Shown piece by piece: positions 41,291 to 61,300 of a DNA stretch of 64,000 bases. The stretch comes from Candidatus Acidiferrum typicum. Lineage in GTDB: Bacteria > Acidobacteriota > Terriglobia > Acidiferrales > UBA7541. The stretch lies in contig JAOAPV010000005.1 in NCBI GenBank assembly GCA_025463055.1, forward strand, positions 124,001-188,000, read 5' to 3'. Position 1 is the first letter of the stretch, and each line of letters opens with the position of its first letter. The position numbers and the translations under genes are program-made. The notes below the pieces were generated by a model. That model had not been told where the DNA came from and did not search any database. It was given only the letters and a program-made list of their open reading frames with translations.

Positions 41291-42883
41291 CTAGATTGTC
41301 ACGAAATTGAAGCTTAGTTTTTGACCCAAATGTTCTCTCTTGAGTCTTTTTAAATACTCGTCCGCTTCATTCTGACGGTCAATCACTTCAGCCTGTGTCA
41401 GGAGCGAGAGCTCCGACCCGCCTTTCAATCCTAAGGCATTGAACGATGTTCCCAAACGAATGCCGGAGTTCTGAGTCAACCACCATCGATCATGAATCGG
41501 TAATTCCCCCGTTATTTGGGTCCCAACGATAGCAAGTTCCGTGTGAGGAGGTTCCTGATCTGAGAAATGCTTGTGCCAATATTCCCTATAGGCTTTCTGG
41601 TAGTCGGGCAAAACTCCGTCGTCATTCTGTTTTTTTCTACTGGTGAGGACGGTCACCTCCACAGCGGGCGCAACTTCGAGAATCAGCTTAAGGACCTCCA
41701 GGTCTTCAACACCAAACCACGGATCGCAAATCTGCAGGAATGAATCTGCGTTTGTTTCCAGCCACTGCTTTAGATACTCGAGCGCAATTGGGCGCTCGCC
41801 AGCGTGTACGAATAATTTCGACGGTTGCTCAGCCACTATTGGCGCCTTACTGGGACGAACTAGTCCGCTATGTCGGGTTGCAATTGCAGCTACCAGATCG
41901 CAGCTCGCAATCGACGCGTCACATAGCTCCCTGAGAAGAAGGCGACCGTCAGAGGCGGTCGACAGTCTGCAGATCGCGTTTTCTATGGCAAACGAGAAGA
42001 CAGGGTAGGCTCTCTTAAGCGACTCGGCAGAAGCCAACTTGATCCAATCGCGCAGCGTTTTGACGTGGCGCGTTGATATCCGATTAGCATTCAAACGTCC
42101 GAGCAATACGTTTGCGACTTCAGCCAGTCTGCGAAAGTCGGTGCCCAACTCCTCGGCTTGCTCATGCTTTTTGTTCAGCAAACTGTCGCGAAACTCATTG
42201 TATTGAATTCGTTCTCTCGCTCTTCGGCGTGCCTCATCAGTATCGAGCGATGATGCAAGCGATGAAGCCGCATCCGGATCTATTCGATAGGCCAAGTCCA
42301 CTAGTCGCCGCTGGATCGGCTCAGTCTCGGGGTCATTAGTGCGCAGCAGCACGTCTCTAGCGTCATTGAGCATCTTCTTCGCTAAAGGCTTGTCAATGTC
42401 AGCCGCAAACGATGCCAAAATTTGGAGCCTGCCTAATTTATCTTGCAGACTTGGTATGGAATGAGCCAATTCATAAGCCTCGTCGAGCAAGGCCACTTTC
42501 TTTGGCCACAAATCGTTGGGAAGTGCTCTTGCCATAATTCCCAGTACATACACTCGATCGCAGACATTAGGAATTGACCTGCCCAAGTTAATGAGATTTT
42601 CCCAGTCGGGCGTTTTATGTTTTTGCAGTTTGGCCGCTTGAGCGGAGGAGATAACTGCAAAGCCGTTGTGGGTGATGAACCGAGGATTTGGGAATTTATC
42701 TGCTATCAGCTTCGTCAACCGTTGCTCCAACTCATTTCGCTGTTCTCGCGTCAGTGGGGTTTCATTATGGTTCCAGATCGCGTCTGCACTAGCGTCTCGA
42801 TATGGCTGTAGATGAGTGAGTCGCTGTCCATCAGAGAGAGCAACGTACATATGTCGCCAGCTGACGCCCAGTCTAGGTTGCAT
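41291..42883 (-). CDS. TPR-like protein with C-terminal phospholipase-D-like domain (probably 3' part of a frameshifted gene)
   Basis: The open frame gives 530 residues, but the first ~35 lie inside the preceding NTPase gene and look like shadow. Meaningful sequence begins around IWNHNETPLTREQRNELEQR. Helical repeats fill about residues 40-330 (YVLGIMARALPNDLWPKKVALLDEAYEL...). The last ~150 residues resemble a PLD fold: FLQICDPWFGVEDLEVLKLIL, VEVTVLTSRKK and IHDRWWLTQNSG.RLGTSFNALG. His464 and Arg466 occupy the HxK places; the Asp of a full HKD is Gln. One inserted base near 42778 would join this to the NTPase. It is probably the effector end of the same protein. Confidence 0.65.
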   Translation of the reverse strand: MQPRLGVSWRHMYVALSDGQRLTHLQPYRDASADAIWNHNETPLTREQRNELEQRLTKLIADKFPNPRFITHNGFAVISSAQAAKLQKHKTPDWENLINLGRSIPNVCDRVYVLGIMARALPNDLWPKKVALLDEAYELAHSIPSLQDKLGRLQILASFAADIDKPLAKKMLNDARDVLLRTNDPETEPIQRRLVDLAYRIDPDAASSLASSLDTDEARRRARERIQYNEFRDSLLNKKHEQAEELGTDFRRLAEVANVLLGRLNANRISTRHVKTLRDWIKLASAESLKRAYPVFSFAIENAICRLSTASDGRLLLRELCDASIASCDLVAAIATRHSGLVRPSKAPIVAEQPSKLFVHAGERPIALEYLKQWLETNADSFLQICDPWFGVEDLEVLKLILEVAPAVEVTVLTSRKKQNDDGVLPDYQKAYREYWHKHFSDQEPPHTELAIVGTQITGELPIHDRWWLTQNSGIRLGTSFNALGLKGGSELSLLTQAEVIDRQNEADEYLKRLKREHLGQKLSFNFVTI

Positions 42884-45800
42884 TGGTCTTCGCGATTATC
42901 AAAGGGATCACCCGGCGGAACTCGACGAAATACAAATTCCACCATAAGGTCCAAACTGACGTCCCGCCAGTCGCGTGGTAGACGGTTGACAAGTTCTAAA
43001 GCAGAGGCGGCGTGTGCCTGATAGAGTGCGGGGCTGGCAGTAACGACCGCCCGCTTCCAAAGCGAATAGTCCTGCTTCTCCAATATCGCCAGCAAGGGTT
43101 GGATATACTGACTGACCGTCTTCCGTGCGTCATCACTTCGCTTAGCTTTGAAGTATCGCAGCGACACTTCCGTCCACAGGCGCACTCGAGAGATTAGGCT
43201 TGGGATGCGATTGATAGCACTGGCGATATTCGACAGGTCATCTCCGGTTTCAAGCCGACTAGCAAATAGCCCGGAAAACGCGCGAATAGCCAGCCGAAGG
43301 CTGGAAATATAGACCGGACGCCCGCAATCCAGTTGTGGGTCACGCTTGAGTTCGTGGCCTTTCTCCAGGTAGAACAAAGCTTCGGCACGGGCATCACTTG
43401 CGAGCAAACTCGTCAATTTGTAGGCTGAGTCGATTTTCTCAATACCACCATCCATCGATTCCCAGGTGGATCTCAGTACTTGAAAGATTTTTTCTTTCAG
43501 CCCCTGATAGCTTGGGTCTCCGGCCCGAGCGAGGAGCGCTGCCGACCACCCACACGCTTTTCGCCGAAGAACTACATCAGTAAGTTTGGAAGATCTAACG
43601 ATAAAGGGAACTAATTCAGTTAGGCTGGCCTGTATGGTTGAGGTATCCGCTTCCTGAGCGCGATGCAGGATTCTTTCTACCGCTTGATCTACTAAATCAA
43701 CGTCCACAATCTTATCAATTACGGCGCCGAGAAACCTAAATGGGACTGATTCCAAGGGCTGACTCAGCGCTGCTTTTATAAGGTCCAGTTTGGCTCTGTC
43801 GCGTCTTGGTTCTGCGTTAAGGGACTCTGTAAGAGCCATTCCTCGGTTCGGAAGGGAAGTTGCCAAGACTTCGATCATGCTGCGGGTGACTTTCACATGT
43901 TCGGCGGTAGAGCCCAACAGTTCGTCGACCTCCTTTTGGAATTCCTCCTCCACGAGCATTGCGATAATCGAGGTGTCCTGAAGCCTATTTTGCGGATCGA
44001 TTGCAGGCAGGGCAGCCATGAGGCGAGCCGTGCAACCCGTCCTGACTTCGAGGTCTTTAACAGCTCTGATTTCGAGATAAACTTCTTGTAGTCGCTTACT
44101 CGCGCCCTCAGGGTCGATGTTAGCTTGGGCTTGGGCGAGCGTGAGTTGTAATTGTATGTAGTCTTGGGTGGGCCCTTGCGTTCTTAATACGCCCCGCTGA
44201 GTATCGAACGTCGAGATAAGTCTCTCAAGTTTCTCTCTGTCCTTTATGAAAGGCAGTGGGGTCGCTAATTCACGAACGTCTTTGGCAGTAGGGGCATATT
44301 CACTAGTGTTGATCACTAGCTTCAGGGCGTGCTCGATCACCTCAGCGGCATTTTCTCTATCGCCCGTATACAATGCCCACAGTCGCAGCATGAATATCTT
44401 TTCCGAAGGTGTTGAGAGCTTTTGAACTTCGGCCAGGATGTCGTTAACTGAGTATGTGCCAAGCACGAATGACATAGCGACAGAGAACTGACGCGCTAGT
44501 GGATGTTTAATTCGCTGTCGAAAGGATTCAGAGACCGAGTCAATCCCGACCTTGTCCTTCTGAGCGTTGACTAGCGCCTCGACTGAGAGTCGCGCGAAGG
44601 TCCAGTCGGTGACTGAATCGTCATTGGCTACAGCCGGTAGGCGCTCGGCCAACTTGATTCCGAGATCTGGTCTTGAATACATCAAGTCGGACGCAAGACG
44701 AACCGCGCCTTTCCCAAGCTCTTCCGGAGTGACCTGGTCATATAACAGGCTAATTTGTTCTAAGAGCTCTGGCTTGGGCGTCAATCCATTTTCTTTTTGA
44801 AAGCGAGCAATCGTCGCTAGGAGTCCAAGCCGATGTTGTTTTAGAATTGCTGCCTGAGCGACGCTCACGGCCTCAGCATATTCTCCGAGCGACATCCACG
44901 CTCGAACTTCAGACCTTAGGGTCGAAAACCCATCAAATTCTTGCAATGCAGCGTTCTGAATTCCAAAACGTAGTAGGTCTCCGTCCCTCCCCAGGCGGAA
45001 AGCGGTCGATACTCCTGCCGTGGCGCTTTGGCGCACTGGCAAGAGGGACCCACTCCGGCTGACCATGGTGCTGAAGTGTTCAGGAGAGAGGTACGCAACT
45101 AGTTCTTCCAATTTTCCCGCCTGCTCCAAATATGTTGGAAGCAGGGCCAGGGCACCGTCTGTTTCTGGATTTTGCAGGAAATACTCAATTGCCATTTGGC
45201 GGACTAAAGGGCGCCGCGGCAGCAACCGATCCTCGACGTATCGTCGAAAACGATCAGATACGAATTCCGCGACTTCTTGGTCGGTCTTCGGAAGACGCAC
45301 GAAAGCCAGTGGCGCTAGAGACTGCCGGGCCTGTTCAGGCGATTGCCTTGTGATCAAGGCAAGGTCCGCGACAGAATGCTTCGGTGTTGGCTGTGAGGCT
45401 AATGCAAGGAGGTTGAGCAAGGGTTCATTGCTCTGATCGACCGTTTTCCATTCAAGATCAAAGAGGTTCGGTAATTTTTCTGGGAGCTCATTCAACAATG
45501 ACTCAGGAGTCGCCCCTGCTTCCAGCAGGCGCCTAATGCTGGCGATCTGTCCTGGAATTCCTCTGCTAGATATCTTGTAGAGTTCTTCGAAAAATTGCCG
45601 ATCGATTTGCAAATCCGAAAAGTAGGCAAAGGTTTCCTCGAGACCGAAGCCGGACAGAATATAGGGCTTGTGTTGTACGCGCCCTCTTATGTAGCGGAGC
45701 ATGTACTCCGGTCGAGTGGCGATCAGACACTTAATATGCGGAACTCCTACCGGTAGTAACCCGAAGATCGCGGACTTGGCGTGAGCTTCGTCTGGCACAC

Positions 45801-46260
45801 CTTCGATTCCGTCGACAACAAAATAAAAGTCAGCGTTCTTACGAGCGGCCAAACGTGCCAATCCGAACACTAGTTGACGGTAATAAGATTCATCTGTGTG
45901 TTCGTCTTCCTTTAGCTCCGTCCCTTGCAGGATAAAGTGCATTTGATTGCACATTTCCCTGAGGAGAATTTGAAGATCATACGAAAACCAGCTCATGGGT
46001 TTGATAAAAAGACTTATTGTCTTAGTGGGGTGTCTCTTCGCGAATTGAGCAAGCAGAGTGGTCTTACCGATCTCTTCCGCGCCTTCAACCGTGAGCAGCT
46101 GAATTCCACTCTGAAACATGTCATCTAGGGTAGACAAAATGTTCTCACGGAGGACTTGTTTGGATGGAAGTTCAGGCAGAGTTGTCGCGACGGCAGTGAC
46201 ATCGCCTGCGACGGTGCGTTCCAATGGAAATCCGCGAAAATCGGTCAGCTGTTGAGTCAT
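42751..46260 (-). CDS. STAND-type P-loop NTPase with long helical-repeat region
   Basis: A 1169-residue protein. The N-terminal NTPase has Walker A GAEEIGKTT (Lys66, Thr67), Walker B FYFVVDG (Asp150) and the STAND-like sensor CLIATRPEYM (Arg183). About 250-400 looks like a winged-helix linker, and the rest is alpha-helical solenoid of TPR/HEAT character with no recognised family. There is no membrane segment or signal peptide. The start lacks a Shine-Dalgarno and lies only a few bases from a predicted transcription start, so translation may be leaderless. The stop falls 132 bases inside the next frame, where the PLD-like module continues. One hand-counted line (44461-44520) is 29/60 GC against 36/60 at 48001-48060 in the AsmA gene. 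Confidence 0.7.
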   Translation of the reverse strand: MTQQLTDFRGFPLERTVAGDVTAVATTLPELPSKQVLRENILSTLDDMFQSGIQLLTVEGAEEIGKTTLLAQFAKRHPTKTISLFIKPMSWFSYDLQILLREMCNQMHFILQGTELKEDEHTDESYYRQLVFGLARLAARKNADFYFVVDGIEGVPDEAHAKSAIFGLLPVGVPHIKCLIATRPEYMLRYIRGRVQHKPYILSGFGLEETFAYFSDLQIDRQFFEELYKISSRGIPGQIASIRRLLEAGATPESLLNELPEKLPNLFDLEWKTVDQSNEPLLNLLALASQPTPKHSVADLALITRQSPEQARQSLAPLAFVRLPKTDQEVAEFVSDRFRRYVEDRLLPRRPLVRQMAIEYFLQNPETDGALALLPTYLEQAGKLEELVAYLSPEHFSTMVSRSGSLLPVRQSATAGVSTAFRLGRDGDLLRFGIQNAALQEFDGFSTLRSEVRAWMSLGEYAEAVSVAQAAILKQHRLGLLATIARFQKENGLTPKPELLEQISLLYDQVTPEELGKGAVRLASDLMYSRPDLGIKLAERLPAVANDDSVTDWTFARLSVEALVNAQKDKVGIDSVSESFRQRIKHPLARQFSVAMSFVLGTYSVNDILAEVQKLSTPSEKIFMLRLWALYTGDRENAAEVIEHALKLVINTSEYAPTAKDVRELATPLPFIKDREKLERLISTFDTQRGVLRTQGPTQDYIQLQLTLAQAQANIDPEGASKRLQEVYLEIRAVKDLEVRTGCTARLMAALPAIDPQNRLQDTSIIAMLVEEEFQKEVDELLGSTAEHVKVTRSMIEVLATSLPNRGMALTESLNAEPRRDRAKLDLIKAALSQPLESVPFRFLGAVIDKIVDVDLVDQAVERILHRAQEADTSTIQASLTELVPFIVRSSKLTDVVLRRKACGWSAALLARAGDPSYQGLKEKIFQVLRSTWESMDGGIEKIDSAYKLTSLLASDARAEALFYLEKGHELKRDPQLDCGRPVYISSLRLAIRAFSGLFASRLETGDDLSNIASAINRIPSLISRVRLWTEVSLRYFKAKRSDDARKTVSQYIQPLLAILEKQDYSLWKRAVVTASPALYQAHAASALELVNRLPRDWRDVSLDLMVEFVFRRVPPGDPFDNREDQCNLDWASAGDICTLLSLMDSDSLIYSHIETLVQTRSGTIMKPH

Positions 46261-51734: not shown

Positions 51735-52448
51735 GTGAGTGGTTGCAGTCTTGCATTCTCTCTCGGCGAGGCCCTTGTGAGCTGGACGCCGAACAAAGTG
51801 ACGGCATTGCGAGTGGTGGTCGGATTTGCTGCGGTTGCTTTGTTTGGGCGCGGCGCTTGGGGAAATCTTGCGGCGGTGGTGTTGACGGTGGCTTCGATAG
51901 CCCTAGACGGGCTGGACGGGCACATCGCGCGTAAGCAGAAGCTGGCGACACCGATGGGAGCGCAGATCGACATCCTGGGCGACCGCATGATCGAGAACGT
52001 GTACTTCACATACTTTGCAGTGGTGGGGATGGTGTCGCTGTGGTTGCCGGTGTTTTTCTTTGCGCGTGGCGCTACCACGGATTTTCTGCGCGGCTTAGCT
52101 TTGCGGGCGGGGCATTCCGGGTGGGGAGCCAACGCGATGCTAAAGACATGGTGGGGACGCGCGCTGGTAGCTTCGCGATGGAGTCGCGGATTGTATGCAG
52201 TCATGAAGTGCCTTTGCTTTTGCTACTTGGGATTGGAGTTGGCGCTTACACGAGGGCCTGTGGCCTTGATCGGTGAGTTGGCGGGAGATGCGCAGACGCT
52301 TATTGCAGGGGCGGGGCAGGTGCTGACGTGGGCCACGGCGGGATTTTGCTTTGTGCGAGGGCTGCCGGTGCTAGTGGAAGGGTGGAAGTACTTCGCGGAT
52401 GGACTAGTCGTGCGTGGCGGGAAAGGCATTGCGAGGAAGATCGCATGA
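51735..52448 (+). CDS. CDP-alcohol phosphatidyltransferase family membrane enzyme
   Basis: A 237-residue integral membrane enzyme, start GTG 51735. The full catalytic signature is present: Asp58, Asp61-Gly62, Ala65-Arg66, Gly75, Asp79 and Asp83 (DG..DG..AR 8x G 3x D 3x D). These enzymes move a phospho-alcohol group from a CDP-activated donor, for example making phosphatidylinositol-phosphate. About six membrane helices are seen. The stop overlaps the next gene's start (ATGA). With a HAD phosphatase and a PAP2/Aur1-like gene directly behind, a role in inositol lipid synthesis is the best guess (inference). Confidence 0.85.
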   Translation: MSGCSLAFSLGEALVSWTPNKVTALRVVVGFAAVALFGRGAWGNLAAVVLTVASIALDGLDGHIARKQKLATPMGAQIDILGDRMIENVYFTYFAVVGMVSLWLPVFFFARGATTDFLRGLALRAGHSGWGANAMLKTWWGRALVASRWSRGLYAVMKCLCFCYLGLELALTRGPVALIGELAGDAQTLIAGAGQVLTWATAGFCFVRGLPVLVEGWKYFADGLVVRGGKGIARKIA

Positions 52449-53206
52449 GACCAAGTGAGATTAACAGTGGGGTGGCCGCGTTTTTTGATTTGGACGGGAC
52501 GCTCATACCGGGACCTTCCCTAGAGAGGCGACTTTTTAAGGACTTGCGGTACCGGAGGGCGATTCCTATCGGGAATTACTTTTTGTGGCTGGCGAGGGCG
52601 GCACGGCTTGCCACCGAAGGAATTCAAATGATGCGGCACGCCAACAAAATGTATTTGCGGGGCGTGCGCAGGGACGGAAGTGAATCCGCCTACGTAGGAG
52701 CGAAAAAGGGGGCTGTCCCACGGTTCTTCCCTGCAGCAATAGACCAAGTGGTCTGGCATGCGAAGCAAGGGCACGGAATTGTTTTGGTCAGCGGCACCTT
52801 GGCGCCATTGGCGAACGAGATGGCAGTGGCGCTGATAGTGCGACTGGCGGTGCGAGGAATTGAGGCATCAGTGGGGGTTTGCGCTACCCGGTTGGAAGAA
52901 AACGACGGTAGATGGACGGGGCGGATTATTGGGGATGCGGTCTGCGGCGAGGCGAAGGCGCGCGCGATACGGCGAATCGCCACGGAAAGAGAATTTGATT
53001 TGTCTCAGTGCTATGCGTACGGGGATTGCGCAAATGATCGCTGGATGCTCGAAGTAGTTGGGCGACCAGCGGCGGTGAACCCTTCGCGAGGAATGGCAAG
53101 GCTGGCGCGTCGGCGAGGGTGGCCGGTCTTGACTTGGGTTGAAGGGCGCAATCGAGCAGAAAGGTCGGAGGGAATGCAGGGAGATGAAGCAGAGAAGGTT
53201 GCATGA
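52445..53206 (+). CDS. HAD-superfamily phosphatase (SerB-like, subfamily IB)
   Basis: A 253-residue enzyme. ATG 52445 overlaps the previous stop by 4 bases; the longer frame up to 52328 is inside the neighbouring gene and is shadow. Motif I is FFDLDGTL (Asp15 nucleophile, Asp17), motif II is VSGT, motif III is Lys171 and motif IV is GDCAND (Asp194, Asp198). The helical cap lies between motifs I and II. SerB-like HAD enzymes remove a phosphate from small molecules or lipid phosphates. Between a CDP-alcohol phosphotransferase and a PAP2-type gene, it is likely to dephosphorylate the lipid intermediate. Confidence 0.85.
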   Translation: MRPSEINSGVAAFFDLDGTLIPGPSLERRLFKDLRYRRAIPIGNYFLWLARAARLATEGIQMMRHANKMYLRGVRRDGSESAYVGAKKGAVPRFFPAAIDQVVWHAKQGHGIVLVSGTLAPLANEMAVALIVRLAVRGIEASVGVCATRLEENDGRWTGRIIGDAVCGEAKARAIRRIATEREFDLSQCYAYGDCANDRWMLEVVGRPAAVNPSRGMARLARRRGWPVLTWVEGRNRAERSEGMQGDEAEKVA

Positions 53207-54291
53207 GTAGCGCGCCCAGACCGGATTTTCGCAAGAACGAACTGACGGTGCTATTAGAACGCGGAAGCGCGGTTCACGAACGCGAAGATCGCTTGCGTTT
53301 TCAGACGCGATCCGACCTTGGCGTTGGGAAAGCTTTTCTTGACGAAATGGCGGCAGTGTTCGCCTGCTGCGGCGCATTTGAGTGGGTGGCTCTGAGCTAC
53401 TTGGCGATTTCGAGCGTGCTGATCGGGATCTTCGCTCAGAATCTGTCACATCCGGTGCGATTGCTCAGCGTGCAGGCGCTCTTGGCGTTAGTGATCGTGG
53501 CGTTGTGCCGGGCTGAAGATAATGTCTGGACACAAACTTCGATCTCGCCAGCAAATAGGCACGGCGCGAGGCGAGGTCGTTGTGGCACCCTGACGCAAAG
53601 ATTTTGGCATTTTTGGCGGCACTGGTATCCGCACTTATTCTTCTTGTTTTGCTTTGAACAGTTAAGTGTGCTCGTTCATCTGGTCACGCCGCGATGGCAG
53701 GACGCCAAGCTGATTGTGTTCGATCACTGGTTAACCGGTGTGCATCCCTCGATTTGGCTGGAACAGTTTGCTACGCCGGGGCGCAACGAGTTCATGCAAT
53801 TCGCGTACTTGACGTATTTCGTTTACCTGCTGGTGCTCGGCGGGATTCTGTACTACCGCGAAGATTGGCACGGGTATTGGTCGGTGATGACGTACTCGGC
53901 GGTTGGATACGCGATCGGATATGTGATCGCGATTTTCTTCCCCATCGAGAGCCCATGGTTTGCCATGGCCGGCTCGTGGCACGGGGAATTGCATGGAGGG
54001 CCGTTTACGGCGGTGATCAATTTCATTGAGCACTATGGAAGAGTGCGCGGGGCGGCGTTTCCCTCCGAGCACGTGGCGGGGTCGTTTGCGGCGCTCTGGG
54101 GCGCATGGCGGCATCGGCGATGGCTGTTTTGGGTGATGCTGCCGCTAGTGTTGTGCATGTGCGTCTCGACTGTGTGGGGTCGCTATCACTACGTGGTGGA
54201 TATTTTTGGCGGAATGGTAACCGGGACACTGGGATATGTCATCGGGAACTGGCTGATGAAGAAGCAGGAAGAGGCTACGAACATCGGTTGA
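53203..54291 (+). CDS. PAP2/Aur1-like membrane lipid phosphotransferase
   Basis: A 362-residue membrane protein. The start overlaps the HAD stop by 4 bases. An N-terminal soluble stretch of about 60 residues precedes six or so helices. The PAP2 active site is visible as FPSEH (Ser288, His290) and GRYHYVVDIFGG (Arg327, His329, Asp333). The wide spacing and the EHYGRVRGAAFPSEH block resemble the inositolphosphoryl-ceramide synthase (Aur1) branch more than the simple phosphatase branch. It would transfer the inositol-phosphate head group to a ceramide or act as a lipid phosphatase. The first possibility fits the operon best. Confidence 0.8.
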   Translation: MSSAPRPDFRKNELTVLLERGSAVHEREDRLRFQTRSDLGVGKAFLDEMAAVFACCGAFEWVALSYLAISSVLIGIFAQNLSHPVRLLSVQALLALVIVALCRAEDNVWTQTSISPANRHGARRGRCGTLTQRFWHFWRHWYPHLFFLFCFEQLSVLVHLVTPRWQDAKLIVFDHWLTGVHPSIWLEQFATPGRNEFMQFAYLTYFVYLLVLGGILYYREDWHGYWSVMTYSAVGYAIGYVIAIFFPIESPWFAMAGSWHGELHGGPFTAVINFIEHYGRVRGAAFPSEHVAGSFAALWGAWRHRRWLFWVMLPLVLCMCVSTVWGRYHYVVDIFGGMVTGTLGYVIGNWLMKKQEEATNIG

Positions 54292-55835: not shown

Positions 55836-58193
55836 TTAGAAGATTTTTTCTTGGTGGCGAAGATTTCCGAAGGTGCCAATATTGGCGACGATGAAGGCGA
55901 TACGGAACTGATTGTCCGTGCGCACTTGGCCGAGGGCGAAGCGGCGATATTCGAGGGCGAGGCCGCAACATTTTCCGTTGTAGCTGACTTGCACGAGCTG
56001 ATCTTGCAGAGCGCTGTTGGTTATGTCGTAGCTGATGCCGCTGGTGACATTGAAACCGCGGCGCGTTTCGCTGCCATAGCCCATGAGCACGCGCACTTGA
56101 TTGGAGAGAGGTTGCAGGATGGGATCGGCTTGCAACCGGAAATGGGCAATGGTGGCAAAAAACTCGCGATACGGTTTTATTTTCACCAACGTGCCGATGA
56201 CTGTGACTTTGTGGAGTTGCGGATCGTATTCGAGGGTTTGTTCGGTATCAAAGAGGCCGCCCGGATTGATCCTGATGTCGCTGACGATTGGTGAGGAGTT
56301 ACGCGGTCCGAGAGCGAAGGCGAAGGGCGTGACGGAATCGAGAGGCTCGAGAACGTTGCGCTGGCCATTGACAATTGCGCCGCCGAACGTGGGATCGAAA
56401 TAATGCTTCTGCACCAAGCGCCAGGAAACGAGCTCTTGTGGCTGGTCGTCGCCGGATTTCATCCAGAAACGCTGCGTAACGCCATATTCGACTTCGTTAG
56501 TGTTGGTGCGGGTAGCGTCAGCGTCAAAGCGGATGAATTGGAAGAAATTGTTAATGCCGGTGATATTGCGATAGGTGATGTGCGGCTCGATGGTGTGCTT
56601 GTACCGCCTCCTGGGTTTAGTCTTGTCGGACGAAATCGAGCCGAAGAAACGTTCCAGGGTCGGAGGACGAAGATCGAAAGTGAATTCGCCGTCGTTGCGC
56701 GTCAGGGATTGAGTGCTGACGGCACCGGCGGGAGTCAGGGAAGACCCGTAATAGGTAGTGCGAAAAGCGGCGGTAGTGGTGGCGCTAAGCCATGGTCCGA
56801 AATGGAGCGGCACCGTGACGCGCGGCGCGAACTCCAGCCGCGGAACAAAATCAGAAGTCGCGATCGGCACGAACGTGGCGGTGGGAGTAAAACCGACATC
56901 GTCGCGCTTTAGGGCGCCGGCCAATGCGTCAAAACCGAAATAGATCGGAAGACGCTCGAAAGGCGACTGCTCGACGGAGCCGAAACGCACTTGCGGCGCG
57001 TTACGCAGCGAGACGCTGGTCTGCGGATTCGTGGTAAGGAAGCTGCGGTCATTGAGCGACGCGACATTAAAACTGAAGCCCCGGAAATTGTGGGTGAGGA
57101 AGGTGGAGCTGCGAACTTCGGAGTTGATTGCTTCGCCGAAAGTGTCGGAGAAAGCAAGCCGGAAGGTAAGGGAAGAAAGCTCGTTGATGTCCGCAACGAA
57201 CCGCCAATTGTGCGGTAGGAGCGACTGCGCCGCTACGCGTTGTTCGTGGCCGCCCTGATGCAGGCGGTCAATCACGGCAAAATAGTTGTAGCGGATGGAA
57301 GTGTTTTCCCAAGGAGTGGCGCGGAACTGGCCGCGTTGGGCGGAGCCTCGCCTGCTGAAATATTCCGCGCCTAGGGTGGTGTCCATCCAAGTGACGGGCG
57401 CCCAGTAAAACTCGTCACCGAAAACAAAACCCTTGCTGGTGCTATTTCCGGCCACGGGAACGAGAATGCCCGACTGCCGGAGTTTTGGTCCGGCAGGCGC
57501 TGTGGCGTAGGGCGTCCAGATGATGGGAACGCGAAATAAACGGAAATTAGCATTGACCAGGGCCATCGTTTTGCCGAGCCGGAGGCGCGCGCGCGGCGCG
57601 TAGAACTGCCACTTGGGGCGGCGGGGATCGCAAACCGTGATCCACGCCTGATGAATGATATAGAAGTCGCTGCCGAGGCGCTCGATCTGCTGGGCTTCGA
57701 AATAGAGCGGATTGTCGGTCACGAGGATTGTAGGGTTGGGCCGACGCTCGATTTTTACCGTACCGCGAACGTTAAGAAATGTGCCGCGCCCGGTGGCGAC
57801 GTTGTAGTGCGCCTCGTCCGCTTCGAGATGCTGGTTTTCGAAGTCGTATTGCACGTGGCCGCGCGCGAAAGCTTCGTTAGTCTGGTCGTTGTATTCAATG
57901 TGATCGGCGCGAAGGTGCTGGCCGGCATAGTGGATGTCGACGTCGTCGTCGGCGATGAAGAGGTTTCCCTGCCGGCGTTGCGGCCCTTTCGCGGAAAGCT
58001 CGGCTACACCGCCTTTGGCCGCTGGCGGGTGAATTTGTTGCGCGTTTGCGGGCGCCCCCGCACCGAAGAAAAACAAGGCAAGAGGAAGCAACGTTGTCAG
58101 CAGAAGGAGTTGAAGCGTGAAAAAATTGCGAGCTTGAGAGTGGCGATTCACGCGGAGGATCTGGGCAATAGGATAAGTTCGATAGCCTAGCAT
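55836..58193 (-). CDS. lptD: LPS-assembly protein LptD
   Basis: A 785-residue outer-membrane protein. I chose ATG 58193, which gives a signal peptide (about residues 17-52, ending APANAQQ); the frame upstream is antisense to the VPS10 gene. The N-terminal OstA/LptA-like jelly-roll runs over about residues 75-195 (NLFIADDDVDIHYAGQHLRADHIEYNDQTNEAFARGHVQYD). The C-terminal barrel (about 220-785) has the long alternating strands of LptD and ends LRHQEKIF. It inserts lipopolysaccharide at the cell surface with LptE. A Cys pair (KCCGLALEYR) lies near the end. Confidence 0.92.
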   Translation of the reverse strand: MLGYRTYPIAQILRVNRHSQARNFFTLQLLLLTTLLPLALFFFGAGAPANAQQIHPPAAKGGVAELSAKGPQRRQGNLFIADDDVDIHYAGQHLRADHIEYNDQTNEAFARGHVQYDFENQHLEADEAHYNVATGRGTFLNVRGTVKIERRPNPTILVTDNPLYFEAQQIERLGSDFYIIHQAWITVCDPRRPKWQFYAPRARLRLGKTMALVNANFRLFRVPIIWTPYATAPAGPKLRQSGILVPVAGNSTSKGFVFGDEFYWAPVTWMDTTLGAEYFSRRGSAQRGQFRATPWENTSIRYNYFAVIDRLHQGGHEQRVAAQSLLPHNWRFVADINELSSLTFRLAFSDTFGEAINSEVRSSTFLTHNFRGFSFNVASLNDRSFLTTNPQTSVSLRNAPQVRFGSVEQSPFERLPIYFGFDALAGALKRDDVGFTPTATFVPIATSDFVPRLEFAPRVTVPLHFGPWLSATTTAAFRTTYYGSSLTPAGAVSTQSLTRNDGEFTFDLRPPTLERFFGSISSDKTKPRRRYKHTIEPHITYRNITGINNFFQFIRFDADATRTNTNEVEYGVTQRFWMKSGDDQPQELVSWRLVQKHYFDPTFGGAIVNGQRNVLEPLDSVTPFAFALGPRNSSPIVSDIRINPGGLFDTEQTLEYDPQLHKVTVIGTLVKIKPYREFFATIAHFRLQADPILQPLSNQVRVLMGYGSETRRGFNVTSGISYDITNSALQDQLVQVSYNGKCCGLALEYRRFALGQVRTDNQFRIAFIVANIGTFGNLRHQEKIF

Positions 58194-58343
58194 GGCGTTT
58201 GCGGGTTGTGTAGCGAGCGGCGAAACCGCACTGCAGCGGCGCGCGTCTTTCCAAGCACAGGACGGGGTCGTTTCCACAAACAAATGATGCATGTCCGAAG
58301 GCTGCGGAGTATGATGCCGGGCCGCGCGATGAAGGGGAGGATC

Positions 58344-61300
58344 ATGAAGCGAGTGCCGTCTGTTTTGAAGTTGGCTGTGGCCGCAGGGTTGTGTGGCGGA
58401 GCACTTTTTATTGGCGCGGAGGCTCGTTCTGCGGATCAGCCGAATCCTACGGACAAACTGAAAAATCTGGAGTTGCGCGAGATCGGCCCCGCGGTGATGG
58501 GCGGGCGCATCGATGACTTCGCGGTCGTCGAGAGCAATCCTAACATCGTTTTTGCGGGCGCGGCTTCCGGCGGCGTGTGGAAGACCACTAACAATGGCAC
58601 GACATGGACTCCGGTGTTCGACAAAGAGGCTGTGTCGACGATTGGCGACATTGCGATTGCCCCATCTGACCCTTCCGTCGTGTGGGTGGGAACGGGCGAG
58701 CCGAATAATCGCCAGAGCTCGTCGTGGGGCGATGGCGCGTACAAGTCCCTCGATGGCGGAAAGACCTGGCAGAACATGGGGCTGGCCGCGACGCGTCTTA
58801 TCGGGCGCATCGTGATTCATCCGCGAAATCCGGATGTAGTGTACGTGGCGGCGCTGGGCCACTTGTGGGGGTCGAATGCGGAACGCGGAGTTTACAAGAC
58901 GACCGATGGCGGAAAGACTTGGTCTCAAGTCTTGAAGATAAATAGTGATACTGGCGTCAGCGATATCGCCATGGACCCGCAGAGCCCGGATATTCTCTAC
59001 GCCGCTGCCTATGAGCGACGCCGCACGCCCTACGGATTCAACGGCGGCGGACCGGACGGCGGCATTTACAAGACGAGCGACGGCGGAGCAACTTGGAAGA
59101 AGCTGACCAAGGGATTGCCCTACGAAACTGGCGGCGGAGACATCGGCCGCATCGGCTTGGATATTTATCGCAAGGACCCGAACATCGTTTACGCGATTGT
59201 GCAGCACGAGAAGGGTGGGACGTACCGTAGCGAAGACAAAGGCGAGACTTGGAAAAAGATGGGCGACACGAATCCGCGGCCTTCCTACTACAGCCAGATT
59301 CGCATCGATCCAAATAATGATTTGCGCATCTGGGAACTGGGCGCGCAAATGTTTTACTCCGAAGACGGCGGAAAGAAATTTGCCACGGATCGTGTGAAGG
59401 GCATTCACGGCGATTATCACGCGATGTGGATTGATCCGGCGGATTCGAATCACATGATCGCGGGCAGTGACGGCGGAATTCACTGGAGCTACGACAGCGG
59501 GCGAAGCTGGGATTTCGTCAACACTCTTGCTATCGGTCAGTTTTACGAAATTTCTGTCGACAATGAGAGGCCGTACCACATTTGCGGCGGGTTGCAGGAT
59601 AACGGAAGCTGGTGCGGGCCGAGCCAGTCTATGACGCGCGACGGCATCACCAACGAAGATTGGAGTGTGATTCACGGCGGAGACGGATTTTACGCGGCGA
59701 TCGACCCCGTCGAACCGTGGACCGTGTACACGGAATCGCAGGACGGCAACATTGACCGGCGCGATTTGCGGACGCAGCAGCAGCGCTCGATATCACCGGA
59801 AGCGAAGTACGGCGACGCGCACTACAGGTATCAGTGGAATGCGCCGGTGGCCGTTTCCGTCTACAACCATACGACGATTTATTACGGCGGGAATTATTTG
59901 TTCAAGTCCATGGATCGCGGCGATACGTGGATGCGGCTCGGCGGGGACCTGACCACCGGTGCGGATCGCAACAAGCTCCAAATTTTTGGGAAGACGCCGG
60001 ACAAGACCACGTTGTCGCGGCACGATGGCGTCCAGGAATATCCCACAATCACCACGTTCAGCGAATCGCCCTTAACGCCGAACGTGCTGTGGGTTGGCAC
60101 GGACGACGGGAACCTGCAAGTCACGCGCGATGGGGGAAAGAGCTGGAAAAATGTAGCCTCGCGCGTTCCCGGCGTGCCCAAAGGTACGTACATCAGCCGC
60201 GTGGTGGCGTCAAAGGCTGGAGAGGGAGCGGCGCTTGCAACATTCGACGGGCATCGCGACGACGACTACGGAATCTACATTTTCGCCACTAACGACTACG
60301 GCGAGACCTGGAAAGCGATTCGCAATGGCATTCCGGATTCCGCCGGGAGCGTGCACGTGGTCCGGGAGCACCCCCGGAATCAGAACCTGCTGTTTGCCGG
60401 ATTGGAATTTGGGCTGTGGGTCTCCTGGGATCGCGGCGCAAACTGGACTGCACTGAAAAACAATTTTCCAACCGTGCCCGTCGACGATATCCAGATACAA
60501 GCACGGGAGAACGACCTGGTGTTGGCCACGCACGGGCGCTCGATATGGATTTTTGATGACATCACACCTCTCGAAAAGATGGACGCAAGCGTGTTAAACA
60601 GCGACTTGACCTTCTTTCCTCCGCATGGGGCTATCACTTTCAACATAAGAATGCGTCGCTGGAGCGGCGGGCAGAAGTTTTTCACAGCGAAGAATCCGCC
60701 TTACGGCGCGATTCTGAACTACTACTTAAAGGAGGCCCTGCCGCCGGAACTACCTAAGACCGAGGCGAAGGACGACAAGGACAAAGCCGCGTCAGCGAAT
60801 CCCGAGAAGGAAGAAAAGGGCAAGGGCACGATAGAGGAGAAGAGCAAATCCGCCACCGAACCAAAGAAAGAAGGCAAGGTCAAAATCACCGTCACCGACA
60901 AAGATGGCAAGGTGGTGCGGGAGTTTGACGGAGCGGGAGCCGCCGGCGTGAATCGCGCGAATTGGGACCTGCGCTACAATCCGGCGGCCGAACCCACGCC
61001 GGAACAGATGGAGGCCATCAGTGCGGGATATGGGGAAGGTCCGCGCGGCCCGCGAGTCGAACCCGGAAAGTACACGATCAAAATCAAGGCTGGCATGAAG
61101 GAAGCAACGCAGGAGGTAGTGGTCGAGGATGATCCGCACATTCAGCTTTCCCCGGAGGATCGGGCAGCGCGGCGCGCGGCCATTGACCAACTCTACGCAT
61201 TGGAAAAGACCACGGCCAAAGATCGCAAGACTATTCAAGGGCTGAAGGACGCGTTGAACGCAGCGCGGGGACAGTGGAAAGCCGATGCCGGCAAGCCTGA

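Follow-up and report, generated by a model that had tools for sequence, protein, structure and literature searches.

Organization of the locus

The window, i.e., the whole stretch of 64,000 nucleotides that was analyzed, originates from an uncultured soil acidobacterium, the genome of which is 98.9% complete. It contains three overlapping genes on the plus strand:

51735..52448, plus strand: CDP-alcohol phosphotransferase (CDP-AP, P0001), PF01066 with E 1.9e-15
52445..52448, plus strand: ATGA start/stop overlap of genes 1 and 2, with ATG at 52445 and TGA ending at 52448
52445..53206, plus strand: HAD-IB phosphatase (P0002), PF12710 with E 4.6e-26, and TIGR01490
53203..53206, plus strand: ATGA start/stop overlap of genes 2 and 3, with ATG at 53203 and TGA ending at 53206
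53203..54291, plus strand: PAP2_3 / Aur1-like integral membrane protein (P0003), PF14378 with E 1.3e-16

The three coupled reading frames and their 4-base overlaps, which had been proposed in the initial annotation, were thus recovered, both junctions reading ATGA and the three Pfam domains being confirmed. Position 51735 is the start of the longest ORF of gene 1; the aligned orthologues begin with M(R/S)WTPNK, which matches the GTG at 51777 (VSWTPNK), and this codon, rather than 51735, is probably the true start of P0001. The operon is flanked by a DsbD/TlpA gene pair on one side and an amidase/LptD pair on the other, all encoded on the minus strand, opposite to the operon itself. A promoter and terminator scan performed no better than on shuffled sequence, and an Rfam search gave no match in the window.

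Conservation and selection

The genus of the host was represented by public records named Acidobacteria gp2, Candidatus Acidiferrum, or Acidoferrales (Acidobacteria subdivision 2). A strong P0003 match was found in 20 of the 25 genus genomes searched, and the full three-gene set in the same order in 19 of them (the window and 18 others); in G005 the contig runs out inside the operon. A more distant acidobacterium, from groundwater (L092), contains the same three genes between the same flanking genes, and the set recurs with different flanks in a genome of another class (L125, genome G273). Comparison with near relatives yielded dN/dS values of about 0.14, 0.23, and 0.14 for genes 1, 2, and 3, respectively, and all three genes are under purifying selection. 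The three-gene arrangement is far beyond chance, because the same genes recur in the same order in 18 other genus genomes, L092, and L125, with low dN/dS. Moreover, the catalytic motifs of all three proteins are intact and kept in the aligned orthologues.

Two related MAGs (G015 and G017; 90% identical) have genes 1 and 2 joined in a single 507-aa ORF. In a third lineage, a small-genome Acidobacteria family, a homologous CDP-AP/HAD pair occurs with overlapping or abutting genes and no PAP2_3 gene nearby. Because of this fusion and of the occurrence of the pair without the PAP2 gene, the synthase plus the phosphatase looks like the core unit of the operon. The pair lacking PAP2_3 is conserved in the small-genome family (L180-L184, in G044, G086, G413, G278, and G059), where the genes preceding it encode uncharacterized membrane proteins and a radical SAM/SPASM protein, the latter typed in L181.

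The CDP-alcohol phosphotransferase

P0001 carries an intact CDP-AP signature, D58xxDGxxAR...G75xxxD79xxxD83, of which D58, D61, G62, A65, R66, G75, D79, and D83 are invariant. It is one of five CDP-APs in the host genome, the other four being assigned by NCBIfam to PgsA, a ClsA/PgsA-like protein, PssA, and phosphatidylinositol-phosphate (PIP) synthase. The last of these is a canonical enzyme encoded elsewhere: the partial sequence in L058 scored 143 bits with the archaetidylinositol-phosphate synthase model and 128 bits with the BT_1523-type model, and the full ORF (L060:9018-9635, on G000 contig C135) contains SYARAR and ERPER boxes and matches the Mycobacterium tuberculosis (Mtb) PIP synthase with E 4e-24. 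This canonical gene adjoins genes judged by eye to be acyl-CoA synthetase-like, lipid-kinase-like, and PlsC-like acyltransferase genes, and L060:4997-9635 is likely a phospholipid cluster.

The initial annotation had compared the CDP-AP of the operon with the PIP synthase of Bacteroides thetaiotaomicron. For P0001, the archaetidylinositol-phosphate synthase model of NCBIfam scores level with or slightly above the pgsA model. The identification suggested by this score was rejected, as a real PIP synthase was found and profile, tree, and fold all disagree with it. The closest profile was that of PgsA (E 4e-6), and hhalign aligned P0001 with PgsA over 177 columns (1.8e-14) vs. 74 columns with PIP synthase (8e-10), for which the CDP half alone aligned. 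The structure models of P0001 and P0003 were built from 16-18 sequences, and the P0001 model (pLDDT 70) compared best with PgsA (Z 15.9), vs. 13.5 or less for other folds and 11.0 to 13.5 for PIP synthases. In addition, the R111..R119 pair of P0001 aligns with the R-x7-R of PgsA in the acceptor half, and by alignment P0001 lacks the two boxes that are typical of PIP synthases, SYxRAR and RPER. A tree was built from 38 CDP-APs, taken from eight Acidobacteria genomes and from other locus sequences; some of its branches are long, and its deep order is unsure. P0001 groups with its relatives in a single clade (95/97), to the exclusion of the PgsA, ClsA, PssA, and PIP synthase proteins of the same genomes. 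Sequence and model comparisons thus indicate that P0001 is not a PIP synthase but belongs to its own clade nearest PgsA.

P0001 shares with the Staphylococcus aureus PgsA (7drj/7drk) the CDP-AP signature, the fold, and the arginine spacing, but differs in its separate clade, a different start of TM5, and a greater length with an insert before TM5, the canonical PgsA being another gene of the genome. The PgsA equivalog TIGR00560 was not reached either, its cut-off being 109.1 bits and the scores 46 to 57 bits for the PAP2-linked CDP-APs and 71 for the family without PAP2. The acceptor of P0001 is probably a phosphorylated alcohol. In PIP synthases, mutants have shown that S132, K135, R155, and R195 (Mtb numbering) are used for inositol phosphate (PMC4634129). 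In P0001, the invariant R148xxR151 and R208 might bind phosphate in a manner similar to the PIP-synthase site, R151 and R208 being possible counterparts of R155 and R195.

The HAD-IB phosphatase

P0002 scored 121.5 bits with TIGR01490, above the cut-off of 98.3, and in the orthologue alignment its DxDGT motif, D15, D17, K171, and D198 are invariant. It resembles the other HAD-IB phosphatases of this model in score, but differs from them in being coupled or fused to a CDP-AP, a pairing for which no published description was found among open-licence papers. A phosphatase that is fused to a CDP-AP most simply strips the terminal phosphate from the product of that CDP-AP. PgpA is encoded outside the operon in the host genome and in 17 of the 18 other genomes tested, and with PgpA in 18 of 19 genomes P0002 is unlikely to be the sole phosphatidylglycerol-phosphate (PGP) phosphatase. 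Because PgsA and PgpA are already in the genome, the operon constitutes an extra branch.

The PAP2_3 protein

P0003 contains the motifs FPxxSP, FPSxH290, and STxxxRxH329YxxD333, with H290, H329, and D333 invariant. The third motif has ST, as in AUR1, in place of the phosphatase-type SR. Nearly all of the Acidobacteria PAP2_3 proteins examined have ST or AT at this place, so ST is not operon-specific, and because of this wide distribution the ST-type motif is no proof of transferase activity.

At the sequence level AUR1 was matched with E 2.5, phmmer of P0003 against the PDB gave no match, and Foldseek on the P0003 model (pLDDT 55) gave no significant match. Structural re-alignment of this low-confidence model ranked IPC synthase 9vj4 first (Z 9.6 over 252 residues), followed by Aur1-Kei1 (9.1), with SMSr (6.8), LpxE (6.6), and PgpB (6.4) at lower ranks. 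As far as this model can be read, P0003 resembles Aur1 more than PAP2 phosphatases and does not look like a plain undecaprenyl-pyrophosphate phosphatase, a placement that the initial annotation had named as evidence against its own reading. Likenesses to Aur1 / IPC synthase (9ivc, 9vj4) include the best fold match over 252-268 residues and the motifs FPxxxPW, FPSxH, and ST..HYxxD; P0003 differs in an identity of 14-16%, the lack of an adjacent partner-subunit gene, and the lack of a ceramide source found in the genome. The chances that P0003 catalyzes transfer or hydrolysis appear about even.

A predicted three-step pathway

The operon could encode a three-step head-group pathway, in which a polyol-phosphate phospholipid is formed, dephosphorylated, and used by an Aur1-like enzyme for transfer to a lipid alcohol other than ceramide; for the pathway as a whole the evidence is finely balanced. 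P0001 would use CDP-diacylglycerol, or else a related CDP-lipid, as the donor of a phosphatidyl group. The acceptor would be a phosphorylated alcohol, with glycerol phosphate or some other polyol phosphate as the most likely candidate, and the product a phospholipid with a terminal phosphate. P0002 would subsequently remove this phosphate. Finally, P0003 would take the resulting lipid as donor and, by means of the His/His/Asp site, pass its phospho-head-group on to another lipid alcohol, with release of diacylglycerol. The first two steps are predicted with fairly good confidence, and the substrate classes given for them are likely ones. A more far-reaching version combines a new CDP-AP subfamily and a coupled or fused HAD phosphatase producing an unusual phospholipid with Aur1-like head-group transfer to a non-ceramide lipid, i.e., a sphingolipid-free exchange and a lipid class undescribed in Acidobacteria; this version is put forward tentatively and has somewhat less than an even chance of being correct.

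Alternatively, the operon might be an accessory phosphatidylglycerol branch without head-group exchange, with P0001 as an additional PGP synthase, the HAD protein as a PGP phosphatase, and the PAP2 protein as a lipid phosphatase through which phosphatidic acid or prenyl pyrophosphate is recycled. The proximity of P0001 to PgsA by profile, fold, and arginine spacing is in agreement with such a branch, as is the fact that the PAP2 family also holds PGP and prenyl-pyrophosphate phosphatases. However, PgsA and PgpA are already in the genome, the P0001 clade is separate from PgsA, and the P0003 fold ranks Aur1 above PgpB and LpxE, which leaves this alternative rather unlikely. The role of the HAD protein in such a branch would presumably be comparable to that of E. 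coli PgpC.

Inositol genes

Transfer of phosphoinositol without ceramide was considered as well, with P0003 moving phosphoinositol to a non-sphingoid lipid from phosphatidylinositol that is made through the separate PIP synthase or by the operon. The myo-inositol-phosphate synthase (MIPS) gene that the initial annotation proposed to look for is indeed in the host genome (PF01658, E 3.6e-33, a 446-aa ORF unlinked to the operon), and together with the canonical PIP synthase, the AUR1-like fold of P0003, and the archaetidylinositol-phosphate synthase score of P0001 it is compatible with inositol use. However, MIPS was found in 38 of 41 relatives irrespective of the operon and is near universal in the class, while G010, a genome of the genus that is 98% complete and carries the operon, has no MIPS match. 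Because MIPS is common with or without the operon and lacking from G010, its presence has no bearing on the operon, and it was discarded as uninformative support for inositol use. This distribution and the missing SYxRAR and RPER boxes of the operon's own CDP-AP speak against phosphoinositol transfer, which is considered improbable. G010 does contain a PIP synthase, and may scavenge inositol or have MIPS missing from its assembly.

Sphingolipid genes

The initial annotation interpreted the operon as a route to inositol phosphoceramide as in Bacteroides thetaiotaomicron, or to a similar head-group exchange product, and proposed serine palmitoyltransferase (SPT) as a gene to search for. The sole match of the BioF/Kbl/SPT (AOS) family in the host genome exceeds the cut-off for glycine C-acetyltransferase and is encoded next to threonine dehydrogenase. 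Its match to TIGR01825 was rejected as SPT, since the gene adjoins threonine dehydrogenase (tdh) and its product clusters with Kbl. The nine other operon-bearing genomes of the genus that were searched contain a close Kbl relative and no SPT-grade match; the Kbl proteins of the operon-bearing genus genomes group together away from SPT, with threonine dehydrogenase beside most of them. In G273, which carries the whole operon in another class, the SPT model gave no hit at E 1e-20, and searches of ten operon-bearing genus genomes and of G273 revealed no bCerS-like relative. Ceramide as a substrate of P0003 in the host is therefore not supported by any known route, as judged from gene content.

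In other Acidobacteria, more distantly related PAP2_3 proteins (23-28% identical) adjoin or overlap a CerR-like epimerase gene in L127, L128, L135, L138, and L140, and in L129:7377-11861 (G316) such a relative is encoded near SPT, bCerS-like, and CerR-like genes. All six ceramide-linked genomes combine a bCerS-like protein with one of SPT grade (481-558 bits), a combination seen in none of the 16 others among the 22 tested. The names bCerS and CerR are putative assignments that follow from gene neighborhood and the pathway. This linkage suggests that the distant relatives are sphingolipid head-group enzymes, and PAP2_3 proteins elsewhere in the phylum may well act on ceramide. The P0003 clade is not nested inside any single ceramide-linked PAP2_3 group.

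Inositol-phosphoceramide synthesis by the operon, to which the superficially matching gene set, the Aur1-like P0003, and the ceramide-linked distant relatives lend some plausibility, is highly improbable and was rejected on the missing SPT and bCerS relatives and the placement of the CDP-AP, the difference in PIP phosphatase family adding to these; the hypothesis is already contradicted for known SPT-type sphingoid synthesis, and its rescue needs a non-SPT route or scavenged ceramide. What stands of the original interpretation is the set of three coupled lipid head-group genes, the Aur1-like PAP2 protein, and the weaker clause on a similar head-group exchange product, which is the best reading; the sphingolipid and inositol assignments and the equivalence of all three protein families do not hold.

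Relation to known systems

The inositol-lipid cluster BT_1522-1526 of B. thetaiotaomicron (PMC9246714, PMC8791184) likewise encodes, within one operon, a CDP-AP together with a phosphatase and a PAP2 protein of the Aur1-like kind, and follows the same logic of synthase, phosphatase, and head-group transfer. Unlike the operon described here, it includes MIPS and BT_1524, B. thetaiotaomicron has SPT, and the PIP phosphatase BT_1525 is PgpA-type, not HAD (PMC9246714), whereas that of the acidobacterial operon is HAD-IB. P0001 scored 16 of 350 bits with the NCBIfam model on BT_1523, and P0003 14 of 480 bits with the BT_1522 model. Bacteroides thus offers a precedent for the synthase/phosphatase/exchange logic; the acidobacterial operon departs from it in its CDP-AP subfamily, in the coupling and fusion of the HAD phosphatase, and in the apparent absence of ceramide. 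Among open-licence papers, neither a published description of the operon nor literature on Acidoferrales phospholipids was found.

By analogy with Bacteroides, routine annotation would assign a gene set of this type to inositol or sphingolipid synthesis, against which the genome data argue; they point to an Aur1-like enzyme that works without ceramide. Such an enzyme would bear on the origin of head-group exchange enzymes, and the Acidobacteria in which PAP2_3 relatives are encoded with ceramide genes form a natural counterpart in which acceptor choice can be compared. The small size of the operon allows its expression as a whole.

Other features of the window

On the minus strand, positions 42751-46260 encode a protein of 1169 aa that has no Pfam match at 1e-5 but an apparent P-loop close to its N terminus, and that is possibly a large STAND-like ATPase. 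In the longest ORF of the LptD-like gene at 55836-59675 (minus strand), the N-terminal extension is of low complexity and probably untranslated, the real start likely being located several hundred codons downstream.
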